Source: a virus | DNA length: 29,389 bases | IMG/VR virus record: IMGVR_UViG_3300009597_000105 | Location: 1 to 29,389 of that record | Direction: 5' to 3' (one strand) | In this document: in pieces, positions 6,818 to 16,723 of the stretch | How the letters are laid out: each line of letters starts with the position of its first letter | Position numbering within the stretch: the stretch's first letter is position 1 | Translations under genes and position numbers: made by a program | The notes under the pieces: model-generated | Seen by the model: only the letters and a program-made list of their open reading frames with translations | Database searches by the model: none | What the model was told of the DNA's origin: nothing

Positions 6818-8650
6818 ATGGCTATTAATATTTGGGCAGTAGTAGGCACTGTAACAGGGTTCATTCCGGTAACTGCGCTTATTGGCACCGCAGGTCAACT
6901 GTTTGGGATGAATGAAGCTGGAGCAGTTGCTACCTGGAAGAACTGGTTGGTACTTAATGATCAACTTCAGGGGCCTGCTGGAACTGTTGGAGCGCCAAGC
7001 ATTGCTTTTGTTGGAGATCTTTCCAGTGGTTGGTATAGACCTGCGGCAGATCAGTGGGCACTGTCGATTGCAGGTGTTCAGGCACTTCTGGCGCAGAGCA
7101 CAAAGTTTACTTTCAAGAAAGATGTAGTTCTTGACCAGAAGCTGCTCCAGACCGATAAAGGTGCGAACATTGCTGCTGCTGCAACTACTGATCTTGCGGC
7201 TGCTACAGGCAATACCCTCGATATTACCAATGCTGCTGGAAACATCAACCTTGCATCTCTTGGCGGTGCTACCATTCCAGCAGGAACTGCCATTGAAACC
7301 AAGTTTGTAATTATTGGTGGCTCCGTAACTCTAATCCACGATGCAGCAAGTCTTATTCTTCTTAGCGGTGCAAATATCCTTCTCCAGACTGGAGACTTTA
7401 TCCGTTGGAGAAAGATCAATGATGCTGCTGCTAACTGGGAAATGGTAGGATTCCAGAGAGGAACAGCTTCTGGTCAGATTACTACTAAGGGTGGTTGGCT
7501 TGTTGGTTCTCTTAGTGGTGCAAATATTGTTCCAGTAGAGAAGATCGCACCTGCTAACAGCAATATCCGATTTGCAGACTCTACTGCTGTTGATGGTTGG
7601 ACAGATGATACGTTTAGGAAGAAGAACAAAATATACAATGGTTCTTGGAGATTTGATCAGATAAATGAAGGAACATTATATACAGCGGGAGCCTTAATTC
7701 AAACTGTTGATGGTTGGACTGCTTCTCTTATTGGTGTTGGAGTATTTAAAGTTCGGCGACTTACTGACCCAGACTTTCCAAGTCAATTTTGCTTAGAAGT
7801 TACCTGCACTACAATAGATGCTGCTATTACTGCTGGGGATTACTACATTCTCAAGCACGCGGTTGAAGGATACGATGTATCTGATCTCCGTGCTGGAACA
7901 GCTACAGCCAAACGGATTACAATATCTTTTGATATGAAGTTTTCTGTTGCTGGAGTATATGGGATTGCAATTCAGAATAGTGCGGCAAACAGGTCTTATG
8001 TAGGAACTGTTACACAAAATGCTGCAAATGTCCGAGAATCTAAGACTGTTACTCTCACTCTTGATACAGCGGGCACTTGGCTGTATACACAGGGTATTGG
8101 ACTTCAACTATCTTTCTGTCTTGCTGGGGGTTCTGGATTCCAAGCTGCTGCTGCGGGTGTTTGGGGAGCAGGAGCTTTCTATACAATTGCTACTCAAGCA
8201 AACTTTATGTCCAATGTGGCTAATATTGGTTACATTGGACAAATACAACTTGAGAAAGGTGCCGTAGCGACGGAGTTTGAGGATTTGAGCTTTGCGGAAG
8301 ATTTAGCGAGAGTGCAGAGATACTACACTAAAACTTTTGACATTGGGCAAGCGGCGGTGCAGGCTTCTGGAACATTTGCAGGGTCGATAATAAGCGACTA
8401 TGCTTATTCTTCGGGGGTAGGTTGTATAGGAACTTTTCAGTTTCCGGTAGTGATGCGAGCAACCCCAACGGTTATAACTTATAATCCAACGCAGGCGAAC
8501 ACAAATTGGAGAAACCAAGGAAATAGTGCCGACACCAACCAAACAGATACAGGTAGTTCGACTAGATCAATAACTCGTCAAGCAGATGTTTCTACGGTAG
8601 GTGGTAATTCTTATAGGCTACATGTCACAGCAAATGCGAGGCTTTCCTAA
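6818..8650 (+). CDS. Tail fibre-like protein with carbohydrate-binding-like region
   Basis: The 610-aa product is probably a receptor-binding fibre or tail appendage. Residues about 1-100 contain a GPAGTVGAPSIAFVGD..SGWYRP motif, a common start of phage fibre repeats (alternating Gly with a G[FW]YRP turn). Residues about 110-215 form a Gly/Ala-rich beta region. Residues about 260-470 show the pattern of the phage fibre binding domain: a W near VDGW, then EGY..SDLR.GTA.AKRITISFD, then a GTW..TQGIGL turn. About residues 474-508 hold the QLEKG..ATEFED...EDLARVQRYY linker typical of fibres, and the end is a beta domain starting FPVVMRATPTV. It overlaps the next gene by one base (TAATG). It is unusual that it lies between adaptor and nozzle genes rather than after the tail genes. 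The substrate of the binding region cannot be read. Confidence 0.72.
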   Translation: MAINIWAVVGTVTGFIPVTALIGTAGQLFGMNEAGAVATWKNWLVLNDQLQGPAGTVGAPSIAFVGDLSSGWYRPAADQWALSIAGVQALLAQSTKFTFKKDVVLDQKLLQTDKGANIAAAATTDLAAATGNTLDITNAAGNINLASLGGATIPAGTAIETKFVIIGGSVTLIHDAASLILLSGANILLQTGDFIRWRKINDAAANWEMVGFQRGTASGQITTKGGWLVGSLSGANIVPVEKIAPANSNIRFADSTAVDGWTDDTFRKKNKIYNGSWRFDQINEGTLYTAGALIQTVDGWTASLIGVGVFKVRRLTDPDFPSQFCLEVTCTTIDAAITAGDYYILKHAVEGYDVSDLRAGTATAKRITISFDMKFSVAGVYGIAIQNSAANRSYVGTVTQNAANVRESKTVTLTLDTAGTWLYTQGIGLQLSFCLAGGSGFQAAAAGVWGAGAFYTIATQANFMSNVANIGYIGQIQLEKGAVATEFEDLSFAEDLARVQRYYTKTFDIGQAAVQASGTFAGSIISDYAYSSGVGCIGTFQFPVVMRATPTVITYNPTQANTNWRNQGNSADTNQTDTGSSTRSITRQADVSTVGGNSYRLHVTANARLS

Positions 8651-11376: not shown

Positions 11377-11838
11377 GTGACGTTTCCTTCAAACACAGGC
11401 ACAAAAAGCGATGATCTTGCTGGTGCATGGGAACTTGCACGACGCACTGCTGGAGGCATGAAGTCTGTCGCGCAGTCAACGCGCAATCAGTCCGCTGCTA
11501 GCACTCTTACCGGCTCCAGCATTATCAACGTTACGGCTGGATTCGCTGCTGCGAAAACGATATTGCAGCGGGTTGCTGCGGTGCCGGGTATCGGTGCTTA
11601 CGCTCAGAACCAGGTCAACGATCCAACGCTTGTTATCGGCACTGAGTTTACCGCAATGGTGAACGCGCTCACTTCCTGCATTGATTGGGTGGTGGCGAAC
11701 TATCCCAAGGACGGGAGTGGATTCCTGCTGGTGCAGACCATACTTCCATCAGGTCTGACACAGGAGCGAATCTTCACCGCCGCTGCGACTGCTGGATTGA
11801 GAGTGCAGCTTGATGCGCTGATCGCCGCAATCGACTGA
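11377..11838 (+). CDS. GC-rich island gene 1, probable virion-associated protein
   Basis: The 153-aa product starts at a GTG preceded by a strong ribosome binding site. It is Ala/Thr-rich, with helical segments around residues 20-40 and 55-75, a central part with Trp and Val, and a C-terminal amphipathic helix (TAGLRVQLDALIAAID). No membrane segment or known motif is seen. The base composition is clearly GC-richer than the genes on either side from about 11440 onward, and codon choice favours GC ends. Together with the next gene it looks like a transferred unit. Size and position suggest a small tail or virion protein, but the function is unknown. Confidence 0.6.
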   Translation: MTFPSNTGTKSDDLAGAWELARRTAGGMKSVAQSTRNQSAASTLTGSSIINVTAGFAAAKTILQRVAAVPGIGAYAQNQVNDPTLVIGTEFTAMVNALTSCIDWVVANYPKDGSGFLLVQTILPSGLTQERIFTAAATAGLRVQLDALIAAID

Positions 11839-12485
11839 GGGGCGTAAGTGACCGCTCCGACCTTCGTAAACCATCAGCAGTCGGTTTGGAATACCTCAGG
11901 CGCGACCAAGGCCGTCACGATCACGGTCCAGACCGGGGATATTCTAGTTGTCGGGTGCGTCGCGGCGGACTCAAACAGCGCCGTGTTCACCGTTCCGACT
12001 AACGATGGAACGGGACTCAGTTGGTCGAACCGCATCAGCTTAGTCTCCGCAAACAATGTAGAAATGGGGGTGTGGACTGCGCCGGTTGACTCCAATAGAA
12101 CGATAGTTATCACGGGGCATGAAACCACCCTCGCCACCTTTTGGGGAATGTTTGCAAGGGCGTGGCGGGGGTCTGATGGAGTTGGCGCGGTTGGTTCTAT
12201 CGAAGGCGATACCACCGCCAACTTTTCCGCGAACATTACGACTACGCAGGCGAACTCCGCAATTGACTCTGTGCAAGGCGATTGGAGCGCTGTATCGGGC
12301 GCACGCACCGCTCTTGCAGGGGCGGGGGCGTGGACCGAAAAAACAAACGTCAATCTTTCTACTCAATACAACATCGTCACCGGCTACCACGCCGACGCTG
12401 GGGCGGCGGGGACTTACGCAGTAGGCTCCAGCGCGCCGAGTGGGCAAGACTTGTCGATTGGCCTAGTTGAGATCAAGGGCACAGC
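11440..12485. other. GC-rich island within a lower-GC phage region
   Basis: Base counts show the change directly: 11881-11940 has 37 G+C of 60 and 12241-12300 has 35 of 60. For comparison, 10741-10800 has 23 of 60, 12541-12600 has 25 of 60 and 12901-12960 has 28 of 60. The change begins about 60 bases into the gene at 11377 and ends near 12485, inside the 3' end of the gene at 11848. No transposase, inverted repeats or target duplication are seen at the edges, so a recombination-type exchange is the likely route. Confidence 0.65.
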
Positions 12486-12525
12486 AGCAGGTGGAGATAC
12501 TATAATGGCACAAACATTACTATGA
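11848..12525 (+). CDS. GC-rich island gene 2, beta-rich structural-type protein
   Basis: The 225-aa product starts at a GTG 9 bases after the previous stop. It is rich in Thr, Ala, Gly and Val and looks all-beta, with a repeated V/T strand pattern (GDILVVGCVAADSN, then MGVWTAPVDSN, then TIVITGH) and a C-terminal strand ending in SIGLVEIKG. This jelly-roll-like pattern is common in phage tail, fibre-tip and other virion proteins. The GC-rich composition runs through most of the gene but ends near 12485; the last 13 or so codons are AT-richer. The stop overlaps the zinc-ribbon gene start (ATGA). A signal peptide is not evident. The function is probably structural, but this is not certain. Confidence 0.6.
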   Translation: MTAPTFVNHQQSVWNTSGATKAVTITVQTGDILVVGCVAADSNSAVFTVPTNDGTGLSWSNRISLVSANNVEMGVWTAPVDSNRTIVITGHETTLATFWGMFARAWRGSDGVGAVGSIEGDTTANFSANITTTQANSAIDSVQGDWSAVSGARTALAGAGAWTEKTNVNLSTQYNIVTGYHADAGAAGTYAVGSSAPSGQDLSIGLVEIKGTAAGGDTIMAQTLL

Positions 12526-13409: not shown

Positions 13410-14363
13410 GTGGCTATTATTTTTAGACCTCCACTTTATACTCAAAGGTCTAAAGCTAGAAAAAGGTCTGATTTTGATGTTCCAAATCTACTGTTAACAG
13501 TTCTTGCTGTTGCAGTAGTTGCTGTTCCATTTAGTCAAGAAGATTGGCCAAATCGAAAGCGTTTTGGAAGGGTTGGTGTTGTAGATGTTGCACCAAATTT
13601 ACTTCTTACAACACTTGCAACACCAACGCCTACTCCTTTTAAGCTGATAGATTTACCAAGTAGGCAAAGGTTTAACAAGCGTAATATAGACTGGAATCAA
13701 AATCTTTTAGCTACTACGCTTGCACCAGAAATAGTAGCAGACCCGCTACCTTTTGTACAAAACAACTTTCCAACTAGATCTATTCGGAAAGTATATGCAC
13801 AAGAAGATGTACCAAACTTACTACAAACTACTCTTGCTGTAACTGTTATTCCATTTTCACAAAATGAGTTTTTATATTTACGGAAAATTGGTCGTCACAG
13901 TATAGATTTTTCACCAAATCTTCTTCAAACAACATTAGAGCCAGTTGTAGAAGTTAGGCCTTTCGTTTCTTTTGACTGGAATTGGATAAGACCTACACAA
14001 CGAAAACAGTATGATGTAGATTTTCTACAAAACCTACTTAATACTGTTCTCGATCCTACTATTGTAGTAACTTGGGCAGAATACGGTGCTCCATTTATGT
14101 TTACTGCTGCAAATTGGACAGATCCAAATCCATTTTTTGAAGTTTATATGCGTGCAACTATTGGAACTGTGTATGCGCGCGTATTTGATATTACTGACGG
14201 GCTTCCAGTAGTAAATTCTGAACTTAGTACTATGCTTGGAGTTTTCCAGCGTATACGATCAGTAGAGTTGCTGCTTACAGATACACATGAATATAAACTT
14301 CAAGTTGGTAAATTAGCAGCTCATAGTGGTGAAATAATTTCTGGTAGATTAATTATTATTTAG
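13410..14363 (+). CDS. Six-repeat PNLL protein with C-terminal beta domain
   Basis: The 317-aa product starts at GTG 13410 with an AGGAG site upstream. Residues about 22-216 contain six copies of a degenerate 34-38-residue repeat. Each begins with [PQ]NLL.T.LA, followed by a Pro/Val stretch and an aromatic/charged part of the form PF....P.R. The Asn-Leu-Leu starts lie at residues 26, 63, 98, 136, 170 and 208. The C-terminal part (about residues 217-317) is a beta domain with a WAEYGAPFMFT start. No catalytic motif is seen. The regular spacing suggests a repeat solenoid or a multi-valent peptide array on the virion. I recall similar NLL-type repeats in other phage proteins but cannot name a family, so a novel or little-described family is possible. 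Confidence 0.7.
   Translation: MAIIFRPPLYTQRSKARKRSDFDVPNLLLTVLAVAVVAVPFSQEDWPNRKRFGRVGVVDVAPNLLLTTLATPTPTPFKLIDLPSRQRFNKRNIDWNQNLLATTLAPEIVADPLPFVQNNFPTRSIRKVYAQEDVPNLLQTTLAVTVIPFSQNEFLYLRKIGRHSIDFSPNLLQTTLEPVVEVRPFVSFDWNWIRPTQRKQYDVDFLQNLLNTVLDPTIVVTWAEYGAPFMFTAANWTDPNPFFEVYMRATIGTVYARVFDITDGLPVVNSELSTMLGVFQRIRSVELLLTDTHEYKLQVGKLAAHSGEIISGRLIII
13473..14057 (+). repeat. Six tandem protein-level repeats (PNLL type)
   Basis: Six degenerate copies with NLL starts spaced 37, 35, 38, 34 and 38 residues apart. The core is NLL.T.LA followed by a PF. The DNA of the copies is not near-identical, so the array is old rather than a recent tandem duplication. Confidence 0.75.
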
Positions 14364-14372
14364 GAGAATGCA

Positions 14373-14549
14373 ATGACAATCTTAACAGTTATTCTTCTTG
14401 TTCTTTTGATTTTAGCTCTTACAGGCCAATTTGGATCTGCTCCACCTGCACCAAATGTTGTGTGGGTAATTGTTGTTGTTGCTCTTATTCTTTGGTTAGC
14501 TGGTGATGCAACTGGCTGGCATTCTGGACGTTTCTGGGGTCATAGATAG
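14373..14549 (+). CDS. Two-TM holin-like protein (DUF3309-like)
   Basis: This 58-aa product is short. Its ATG is preceded by AGGAG 6 bases upstream, overlapping the stop of the previous gene. It has two hydrophobic segments (about residues 2-17 and 28-43) separated by a short Gly/Pro/Ala turn (TGQFGSAPPAP), and a basic, His- and Trp-containing tail (GWHSGRFWGHR). The shape resembles the DUF3309 family of tiny two-helix membrane proteins. Position at the start of a module with a peptidase endolysin makes a holin role plausible. The family name rests on pattern only, and a structural or accessory membrane protein is possible. Confidence 0.72.
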   Translation: MTILTVILLVLLILALTGQFGSAPPAPNVVWVIVVVALILWLAGDATGWHSGRFWGHR

Positions 14550-14558
14550 GGAGAGTTT

Positions 14559-14915
14559 ATGAGTGACGAACACAAGGAAGAAGAAAATAAAATCGGTGAG
14601 GGTATTCGGCGACAAATTAGTTGGCAGTATGTAATTCTTACTATTACTCTTGCTCTTATATCAGGTGGTCCAACTTTTATTATGGCTTGGAAAGCTGAAA
14701 GTCAAGCTACCGAAGCTAAAGATCAGTCAAAAGAAACACATGATGCTGTCAATAGTAGACTTGATGAGTTTATAAAAACCTACAAGCAAGCTGCTACTGA
14801 TGCAGCACTTCTTAAAGAACGTAAAGACGTTAGTGATAGGAAAGAGAAAAAAGATCACGAAGAAGAAATGCTCCCAAATGCAGTAGATACTAGTAGACAG
14901 AGGAAAACCAAATGA
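14559..14915 (+). CDS. One-TM coiled-coil protein, possible holin or spanin-like
   Basis: The 118-aa product has a charged N-terminus (residues 1-19), one hydrophobic segment (about 20-44, with a central GGP) and a long, highly charged helical tail (residues 45-105). This is the layout of an inner-membrane spanin (Rz-type) or of a single-TM holin. The tail is probably a coiled coil. It lies 9 bases after the two-TM gene and overlaps the GH5 gene by 4 bases (ATGA). A spanin would need an outer-membrane lipoprotein partner, which I do not find nearby, so the role stays open. Confidence 0.65.
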   Translation: MSDEHKEEENKIGEGIRRQISWQYVILTITLALISGGPTFIMAWKAESQATEAKDQSKETHDAVNSRLDEFIKTYKQAATDAALLKERKDVSDRKEKKDHEEEMLPNAVDTSRQRKTK

Positions 14916-16120
14916 GTGACACGATTAAGCTACTTGTAAATGAGAAGGAAGTCTTTAAGCACATTTGTGATGTGCCAATACCTCCTATTCCTCCCGTTCC
15001 AGTTCCAACACTGGGGGGTTATACTGTCAAGTCTGGTAAAATCTTTACACCTGAAGGTATCAGACTTCGCATAAAAGGTGTTTCTCACTTTGGATTCAAT
15101 GTTGCTAAAACACTTCAACCACAATGGATGTGGGGACAGAATTGGAAAGTTCAACTTAAGCAAATACTTGATGCTGGCTTTAATGCTGTTCGTGTTCCAT
15201 TTATTCCAGATACACTCTACTCGCCTGCTTCTGCTCGTGGATATGTTGATCCAGGAATAAATCCAGGAATAGAAACAGTAACACCACTACAGTTTTTAGA
15301 CTTTTGGATGGCAGAAGCAAACAGGCTTGGTCTTTACATCATGCTTGATTTCCATTCTGTTAGTGGAAGGTCTCTTTACTTCCATTGGTTTGTGGGAGAA
15401 CCTTTGCATTATGGGGCCGGTCGTTGGGTAGAAACTTGGAATCAACAACCCTATAGTGAAGCCAATTGGATTCGTGATCTTGTATTTGTTGCAAAGCGTT
15501 ACGCACACCTTTCTAAGTTCTTTGCGATTGATATCTTCAATGAGCCACATGATCTTGTAACATGGGGTAAACCAACACCTGGTAAAGTCTCATGGAAAGA
15601 TGCAGCAGAAAAAGCAGCAGCTGCAATACTTGCTGCAAATCCAAATCTGTTAATCTTTGTTCAAGGAATCAGTGACAACTGGGAAGGGCCAGAAAAGAAC
15701 ATTCCAATCAATTGGGGTGAGAACTTTCAACCTCAATTACGTGCACCACTTCTTATTCCATCAGAAAAACTTGTTCTTTCCCCTCACTCATACGGCCCAG
15801 ATGTTTACTATGAGAATGAGTTTGACGCTGCTAACTTTCCAGATAATCTCCCAGAAAACTGGGAACAATTGTTTGGCCAATTCTATCCAAACCATGCTGT
15901 AGTTGTTGGTGAGTGGGGTGGGCGTTATGGCGTTGGTGGTGTAGGAATCAAAGATAAACAATGGCAAGATAAGTTCGTTGATTATCTGATTAGCAAAGGT
16001 ATGACAGATACCTTCTACTGGTGCTGGACTCCTAATAGTGGCGATACTGGTGGTATTCTTGATGATAATTTGAATGTGCGAGCTGATAAGATGGGATTAC
16101 TTGGGAGACTATGGAGATAA
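14912..16120 (+). CDS. Glycoside hydrolase family 5 endo-beta-1,4-glucanase
   Basis: The 402-aa product is predicted to cut beta-1,4-glucan chains by a retaining mechanism in a TIM barrel. Conserved GH5 residues are in order: R94 (NAVRVPF), H148 (DFHSV), N210 and E211 (FNEPH, acid/base; Glu codon 15542-15544), H292 and Y294 (SPHSYG), E334 (VVGEWGG, nucleophile; codon 15911-15913), and the W372 region (FYWCWTPNSGDTGG). The last motif is close to the bacterial cellulases of plant pathogens such as Xanthomonas. Residues 1-21 are a short hydrophilic start and residues 22-36 are a Pro-rich linker (PIPPIPPVPVP). No signal peptide is seen, so export must rely on cell lysis or on the virion. It overlaps the previous gene (ATGA) and sits in the lysis module. 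All key residues are intact, so it should be active. Confidence 0.92.
   Translation: MSDTIKLLVNEKEVFKHICDVPIPPIPPVPVPTLGGYTVKSGKIFTPEGIRLRIKGVSHFGFNVAKTLQPQWMWGQNWKVQLKQILDAGFNAVRVPFIPDTLYSPASARGYVDPGINPGIETVTPLQFLDFWMAEANRLGLYIMLDFHSVSGRSLYFHWFVGEPLHYGAGRWVETWNQQPYSEANWIRDLVFVAKRYAHLSKFFAIDIFNEPHDLVTWGKPTPGKVSWKDAAEKAAAAILAANPNLLIFVQGISDNWEGPEKNIPINWGENFQPQLRAPLLIPSEKLVLSPHSYGPDVYYENEFDAANFPDNLPENWEQLFGQFYPNHAVVVGEWGGRYGVGGVGIKDKQWQDKFVDYLISKGMTDTFYWCWTPNSGDTGGILDDNLNVRADKMGLLGRLWR
16113..16116 (+). promoter_or_regulatory. Ribosome binding site that selects the GTG start at 16122
   Basis: GGAG lies 5 bases before GTG 16122 and just inside the end of the GH5 gene. It favours this start over an in-frame ATG at 16074, which would lie within the GH5 gene. 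Confidence 0.6.
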
Positions 16121-16121
16121 C

Positions 16122-16358
16122 GTGAGTAACGGGAATAGAATTAAAGAACATCTAGTCACACGTTTTGAAGCAGTTTATAATGAAAATATAAAAAAGTGGC
16201 GTGGACAGATTGTAAATACAGCAAATAACGAAGTTTTATGGCTTACTCCAGAATTAAGTAACCAAGCAGCCTGTTTAGCTACTATCGAAACAGCTAGACT
16301 CACAAATACTTACACTGTAACTAAAATTGTTACAACTAAAGGTGCAACAACCAAATGA
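16122..16358 (+). CDS. Small protein between glucanase and endolysin, possibly DUF1508-like
   Basis: The 78-aa product (from the GTG start) has an alpha-beta pattern: a basic helical start (RIKEHLVTRFEAV), a strand containing W (KWRGQIVNTANNEVLWLTPEL), a helix (NQAACLATIETARL) and a Thr-rich tail. The arrangement of strand, NxEVLW, then a helix with QAAC..IE slightly resembles the DUF1508 repeat. It overlaps the endolysin gene by 4 bases (ATGA). There is no signal peptide. A role as a regulator or partner of the lysis enzymes is an inference from position only. Confidence 0.6.
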   Translation: MSNGNRIKEHLVTRFEAVYNENIKKWRGQIVNTANNEVLWLTPELSNQAACLATIETARLTNTYTVTKIVTTKGATTK

Positions 16359-16723
16359 TGACACTTGGAGAAAAACAGCGTTTGTTTGTTTACCTACAGG
16401 GAGTTTTCATCCTGTGGTGTTATGCTAATGACTATGAACTAAGTGATGGAGAAGCACATAGACCTCCTGAACTTTCTGCACTTTATGCTAAACAGGGCAG
16501 AGGAATAAGTAATACGTTGCACGGAATTCGACTTGCAAGAGATTGGAATCTTTTTAAAGATTTATCTCTGCCAGGTGATGAAGATATTTACCAAAAAGAT
16601 TCAGAAGCATATCGTCCTCTTGGAACTTTTTGGAAATCACTACATCCACTGTGTAGATGGGGTGGAGATTTCGCAAACAAAGATGGGAACCATTTTTCAT
16701 TGGAACATGAAGGAGTAAAATAA
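16355..16723 (+). CDS. M15-type peptidase endolysin
   Basis: The 122-aa product is probably the endolysin that cuts the peptide stem of peptidoglycan at lysis. It has the M15/VanY zinc-peptidase pattern: an ELSDGEAHRPPEL start, then H56 and D63 in LHGIRLARDWNLF (in place of the usual H..GLA.D), a central EAYRPLGTFW stretch, a CRWGG turn and H113 in DGNHFSLEH. The three zinc ligands are H56, D63 and H113. The length is near that of the T5-type single-domain endolysin and there is no separate binding domain. It is the last gene of the lysis module, coupled upstream by ATGA and downstream by TAATG. No signal peptide is seen, so export depends on a holin. Confidence 0.85.
   Translation: MMTLGEKQRLFVYLQGVFILWCYANDYELSDGEAHRPPELSALYAKQGRGISNTLHGIRLARDWNLFKDLSLPGDEDIYQKDSEAYRPLGTFWKSLHPLCRWGGDFANKDGNHFSLEHEGVK

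Follow-up and report, generated by a model that had tools for sequence, protein, structure and literature searches.

A free-standing, predicted GH5_1-like endoglucanase among the lysis genes of an uncultured short-tailed phage, with a conserved N-terminal head that may tether it to the virion

The IMG/VR virus record IMGVR_UViG_3300009597_000105, which was analyzed over its whole length of 29,389 nt (hereafter the window), contains on the plus strand at positions 14912–16120 an ORF that, judged from its sequence, is a complete and intact GH5 enzyme of the GH5_1-like type. We favor, with a probability of about 0.45, the interpretation that this is a bacterial-type GH5_1 enzyme adapted to phage use, which is tethered to the virion and cuts a cellulose-like exopolysaccharide at entry. 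According to this model, the protein would be produced in the cytoplasm and fold there with neither a Sec signal nor disulfides, would exit the cell only along with the progeny, and would ride on the virion tethered by a 21-residue N-terminal head via a flexible proline linker. By cutting the cellulose-like exopolysaccharide around the next host, it would let the tail reach the cell surface. We infer the substrate, the virion attachment and the entry role; the target is probably a cellulose-like coat around the host cells.

The ORF runs from an ATG to a TAA codon, encodes 402 amino acids and has a Shine-Dalgarno-like AGAGGA sequence 5' of its start. It matches the Pfam Cellulase profile PF00150 (E = 2.6e-37; 129.3 bits against a curated cut-off of 23.5), and its closest solved structure by sequence is XcCel5A (4TUF; E = 2.8e-85). 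An AlphaFold2 model of the protein (pTM 0.83) predicts a GH5 barrel, for which the best PDB match was again 4TUF (TM score of 0.91, by target length), followed by EGPh and E1. All eight residues typical of GH5 members (the two catalytic glutamates plus R, H, N, H, Y and W) are present, and R94, H148, N210, E211, H292, Y294, E334 and W370 are identical in the phage protein and in 30 of 30 bacterial homologues. The catalytic acid/base E211, which lies in an NEP motif (codon at 15542–15544, plus strand), and the catalytic nucleophile E334 (codon at 15911–15913, plus strand) are invariant across the aligned bacterial and phage GH5 proteins. The original prediction of an intact GH5 with its catalytic residues in place thus holds, and the catalytic substitutions that would have spoken against it were not found. 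XcCel5A (4TUF), EGPh (2ZUM) and E1 (1ECE), which we take to be GH5_1 enzymes, share the fold and the catalytic residues of the phage protein (XcCel5A and EGPh at 38–45% identity) and were the best matches both by sequence and by fold, with other GH5 groups far behind; the GH5_1 assignment rests on these matches. Endo-β-1,4-glucanase activity is predicted for the protein.

The phage enzyme lacks the features that mark bacterial cellulases as secreted, namely a signal peptide, conserved cysteine pairs and, in many cases, a CBM. Most bacterial homologues are secreted, with a hydrophobic signal-like N-terminus, and many have a C-terminal extension, whereas the phage protein has neither a hydrophobic N-terminus or signal peptide, as had been predicted, nor a C-terminal or CBM-like extension. 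Four cysteines (positions 98, 152, 259 and 277) are invariant in the 30 aligned bacterial enzymes, where they presumably form two disulfides as in E1-type enzymes, and none of the four is present in the phage protein, an absence that fits folding in the reducing cytoplasm. In addition, the loop after the active-site H148 (approximately residues 154–173; 15371–15430, plus strand) carries a 17-residue insertion specific to the phage pair, i.e., this protein and its counterpart in the comparison lineage L003 (contig 3300012179_000117). The insertion was found in none of the 30 aligned bacterial enzymes and is a low-confidence part of the AlphaFold2 model. The phage pair also deviates at approximately 36 positions where the bacterial enzymes show conservation of at least 90% (for example, HGLW to QWMW and E63 to N). 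Given the insertion and these changes, the substrate may be other than cellulose.

The N-terminal head MSDTIKLLVNEKEVFKHICDV (21 residues; 14912–14974, plus strand) is followed by the proline-rich linker PIPPIPPVPVPT (14975–15010, plus strand), which was delimited by alignment with L003 and by low pLDDT; model pLDDT is below 50 over residues 1–32. The head has the same protein sequence in L003, although 8 of its 21 codons carry synonymous differences; the linker, in contrast, differs between the 2 lineages in both sequence and length. At the replacement rate of the GH5 protein itself, approximately 1 to 2 changes would be expected in the head and none was seen, which is suggestive, but not proof, from two sequences, of a constraint at least as strong as that on the catalytic domain. 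A conserved head joined to a variable linker is what a docking peptide with a spacer would be expected to show, and it favors docking of the protein. The head is not a signal peptide, and the GH5 protein has no evident exit from the intact cell. Action outside the cell would require that it be carried on the virion or set free by lysis. Several observations count against tethering: the head has no detectable relative in phage records or in 209 compared loci, the conservation argument rests on 2 lineages, the protein has no recognizable virion-anchoring domain, and the gene sits among lysis genes.

The carrier is an uncultured short-tailed phage of the same kind as PaP2, Tiera and EBPR podovirus 3, and its GH5 gene is accessory. 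Its portal is 33–36% identical to those of the Pseudomonas phages PaP2 and PaMx41, the Polaromonas phage Tiera and EBPR podovirus 3, and its relatives have the same gene order, from terminase through portal, scaffold-like, capsid, tail and lysis genes to those for internal virion proteins. Tiera and EBPR podovirus 3 resemble it also in the capsid protein and the large internal virion protein but, unlike it, have no GH5 annotated in the compared stretches. GH5 was absent from 39 of the 40 related IMG/VR records searched, some of which are fragments, and L003 was the sole carrier; an IMG/VR search for further GH5 proteins of the present type returned only the 2 known lineages. Two other candidates, L191 and L192, were discarded as false matches arising from an unrelated non-GH5 protein. 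A tRNA search found none in L005 or L111. Elsewhere in the window, positions 11377–12525 are a compositional outlier (GC of 51–59% against 44% for the window) that includes an ORF at 11848–12525 with a GC3 of 0.61 and no family match; this stretch is possibly a recent acquisition in a variable region 5' of the lysis genes. The ORF at 13410–14363 (317 amino acids) contains approximately 6 copies of DVPNLLLTTLA-type segments and has no family match either. In related phages, the stretch between the tail genes and the internal virion genes is hypervariable (L114:20334–21071, L111:11358–12698, L140:10366–10995 and L116:18131–18919) and is occupied by fibre-like genes, genes for concanavalin-like lectins (PF13385 in L140) and genes that, by eye, resemble glycosyltransferases.

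The GH5 gene lies in a lysis-type neighborhood, all members of which are on the plus strand. A 58-amino acid protein with 2 hydrophobic stretches (14373–14549), which matches DUF3309 weakly and below the cut-off (E = 0.0064), is a holin candidate. It is followed by a 118-amino acid candidate Rz-like inner-membrane spanin (14559–14915), which has a single N-terminal hydrophobic stretch followed by a charged helix and matches the Rz-like spanin phrog_739 weakly (E = 0.001); a 61% identical counterpart is located directly 5' of GH5 in L003. A search for an embedded Rz1 lipoprotein gave only lipobox-like strings in short unlikely frames. The stop codon of the Rz-like gene overlaps the GH5 start (ATGA). 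On the 3' side of GH5 is a 78-amino acid ORF with a GTG start (16122–16358; an alternative 94-amino acid frame from 16074 overlaps GH5), and then a 122-amino acid M15-type endolysin (16355–16723). The latter matches PF13539 just below the gathering cut-off (E = 1.1e-4), shows by inspection H56, D63 and an HFSLEH motif, and is approximately 50% identical to phage proteins annotated as endolysin or M15 peptidase that adjoin holins. The originally predicted placement of GH5 in coupled frames between a membrane lysis-type protein and M15 is thus correct in that the frames from the Rz-like gene to M15 overlap or abut, but GH5 is not adjacent to M15 because the 78-amino acid ORF intervenes. This small ORF has no Pfam match. 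Its predicted β-β-β-α-β fold is weakly similar to HVO_2922 (E = 0.05; rmsd of 1.4 over 49 columns), and an assignment to DUF1508 was rejected, as Pfam gave no support for it and this structural likeness is weak. In L111 and L139, GH5 is lacking and M15 comes immediately after a membrane protein, which indicates that GH5 and the 78-amino acid ORF are an extra pair at that place. The GH5 protein itself is only a neighbor of the lysis genes: it has no hydrophobic segment, the GH5_1 fold is not a muralytic family, and it does not have the peptidoglycan or membrane target of a phage lysis protein.

L003 has the same genes in the same order from the Rz-like gene to M15, which allowed the 2 lineages to be compared gene by gene. 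The GH5 proteins are 94% identical (dS of 0.45), and their dN/dS of approximately 0.08 (0.038/0.45) indicates purifying selection that keeps the enzyme functional. M15 is 97% identical in L003 (dS of 0.33) and 99% identical in L007, and the 78-amino acid ORF is only 55% identical with a high dN/dS of approximately 0.66, though both its neighbors are strongly conserved. In contrast, identity is 57% for the major capsid proteins (MCP; dS of approximately 1.9) and approximately 35% both for the tail protein that was compared and for the product of the gene 3' of M15. The tail fibre (6818–8650 in the window, L003:3465–4631) is conserved in its C-terminal region from approximately residue 268 (71% over the aligned part), while its N-terminal 267 residues are mostly missing from L003. 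GH5 and M15 are far closer than the flanking virion genes and were thus exchanged much more recently than those diverged, so that GH5 moves together with the endolysin between phages with structural genes that are 35–71% identical. That the two phages share GH5 and M15, and less markedly also the C-terminal region of the tail fibre, fits a host-surface function.

Capture of the gene from a plant pathogen, as had been predicted, was dropped on the basis of identities and tree. The best PDB match being XcCel5A of Xanthomonas campestris could suggest a recent origin in a Xanthomonas-like bacterium, but the bacterial relatives of the phage enzyme (42–50% identical) are spread over several phyla, and the Xanthomonas and Acidovorax enzymes (approximately 42–46%) are no closer than those of Dadabacteria, Thiotrichales, Methylococcaceae and Chloroflexota (42–50%). 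Moreover, in the tree a long stem leads to the phage pair, which falls outside the Xanthomonas clade, and the GC and GC3 of the gene match the phage, which makes such a capture very improbable.

Phage GH5 enzymes and their action against cellulose are already known, and the novelty implied by the original prediction does not hold: GH5 was found in 34 phage records. What is new is the free-standing form; in the other phage GH5s examined, the enzyme is one domain of a larger protein. In the other phage GH5 loci (sets of 6 and 17, partly from the same phages), 95–539 residues precede GH5 when start codons are chosen mechanically, whereas the present protein has only a 36-residue head plus linker. 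It thus departs from the architecture that defines the S6-type enzymes, although it may act in a similar way. The S6-type enzymes compared are gp095 of Erwinia phage vB_EamP-S6 and its relatives (PEp14 cel, Klebsiella LASTA/SopranoGao, Serratia Parlo, Pseudomonas Skulduggery and Henunavirus). S6 gp095 and its relatives have the same core active site and, like the present protein, lack the 2 complete cysteine pairs, but are only 24–29% identical to it. The tree splits the present GH5 from the domain-fused phage GH5s (support of 100/98); however, branches are long and a single phage clade is not rejected by the AU test (p = 0.515). For this reason we do not claim convergence, although the domain-fused proteins also lack both complete cysteine pairs. 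A very large virus record (L206; contig 3300009709_000002, 360 kb) encodes an S6-type GH5 after 527 other residues. Phage S6 shows that GH5 on a larger phage protein is an established entry device, which supports tethering by analogy: cellulose is its first receptor, it requires bacterial cellulose, and gp095 degrades a carboxymethylcellulose-type substrate (PMC9544554).

A realistic, if not probable, alternative is that soluble GH5 accumulates in the cytoplasm and is freed at lysis together with M15, loosening a cellulose-like matrix so that the progeny spread. It agrees with a free-standing enzyme without signal peptide or known virion domain, with its location between the Rz-like protein and M15 where L111 and L139 have a membrane protein and then M15, and with the joint travel of GH5 and M15 between phages with divergent capsids. 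However, release at lysis leaves the strictly conserved head and the proline linker unexplained, and position is a weak argument because phages of this kind have their lysis cassette within the cluster of virion genes, where M15 overlaps the gene that follows it. S6 likewise has its GH5 gene a few genes away from the endolysin, yet S6 virions are reported to have cellulase activity, so that the position near lysis genes does not separate the virion route from the release route. The originally predicted role in the lysis module is thus supported as to the cassette and a plausible cellulose-like target, but the position does not imply release, and head and linker suggest tethering instead.

Under either route of delivery, the substrate of the barrel could be something other than cellulose, for example a glucan that is modified or mixed, a glucomannan or a different glycan of the host. 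The GH5 family as a whole covers many substrates, and the remodeled loop and the changes at conserved positions may point in this direction; the eight core residues and the overall fold fit endo-β-1,4-glucanases, and we consider a non-cellulose substrate realistic, though less likely. An auxiliary metabolic role, in which GH5 breaks down plant polymer from the environment as food for the infected host or for the community, is improbable. A soil-virus GH5 with confirmed endomannanase activity, likewise virus-encoded and from a metagenome, was read as carbon-degrading (Emerson et al. 2018, PMC6786970), but that enzyme is mannan-specific, whereas the present one is GH5_1-like and located inside a lysis cassette. 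Besides, without a signal peptide, evident pre-lysis export or a CBM-like extension, unlike its secreted homologues, it would yield products only once the host is dead.

The preferred reading remains that of a virion-tethered glucanase acting at entry. In a bolder form, which we put forward tentatively, the protein would be a minimal phage glycanase: a secreted bacterial cellulase would have evolved into a cytoplasmic enzyme free of disulfides, with a 21-residue peptide and a proline tether for docking on the virion, and together with the endolysin it would make up a mobile host-envelope cassette that is exchanged among otherwise divergent podoviruses. The protein is small and single-domain, which makes head and tether directly testable. 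In the literature searched, cellulose as a phage receptor is a single system, that of S6 on Erwinia. If a small stand-alone GH5_1 serves another, distinct phage lineage, this would suggest that β-glucan coats are a wider barrier to phages, and also that bacterial cellulases can be converted into phage enzymes that do without signal, disulfides and CBM.
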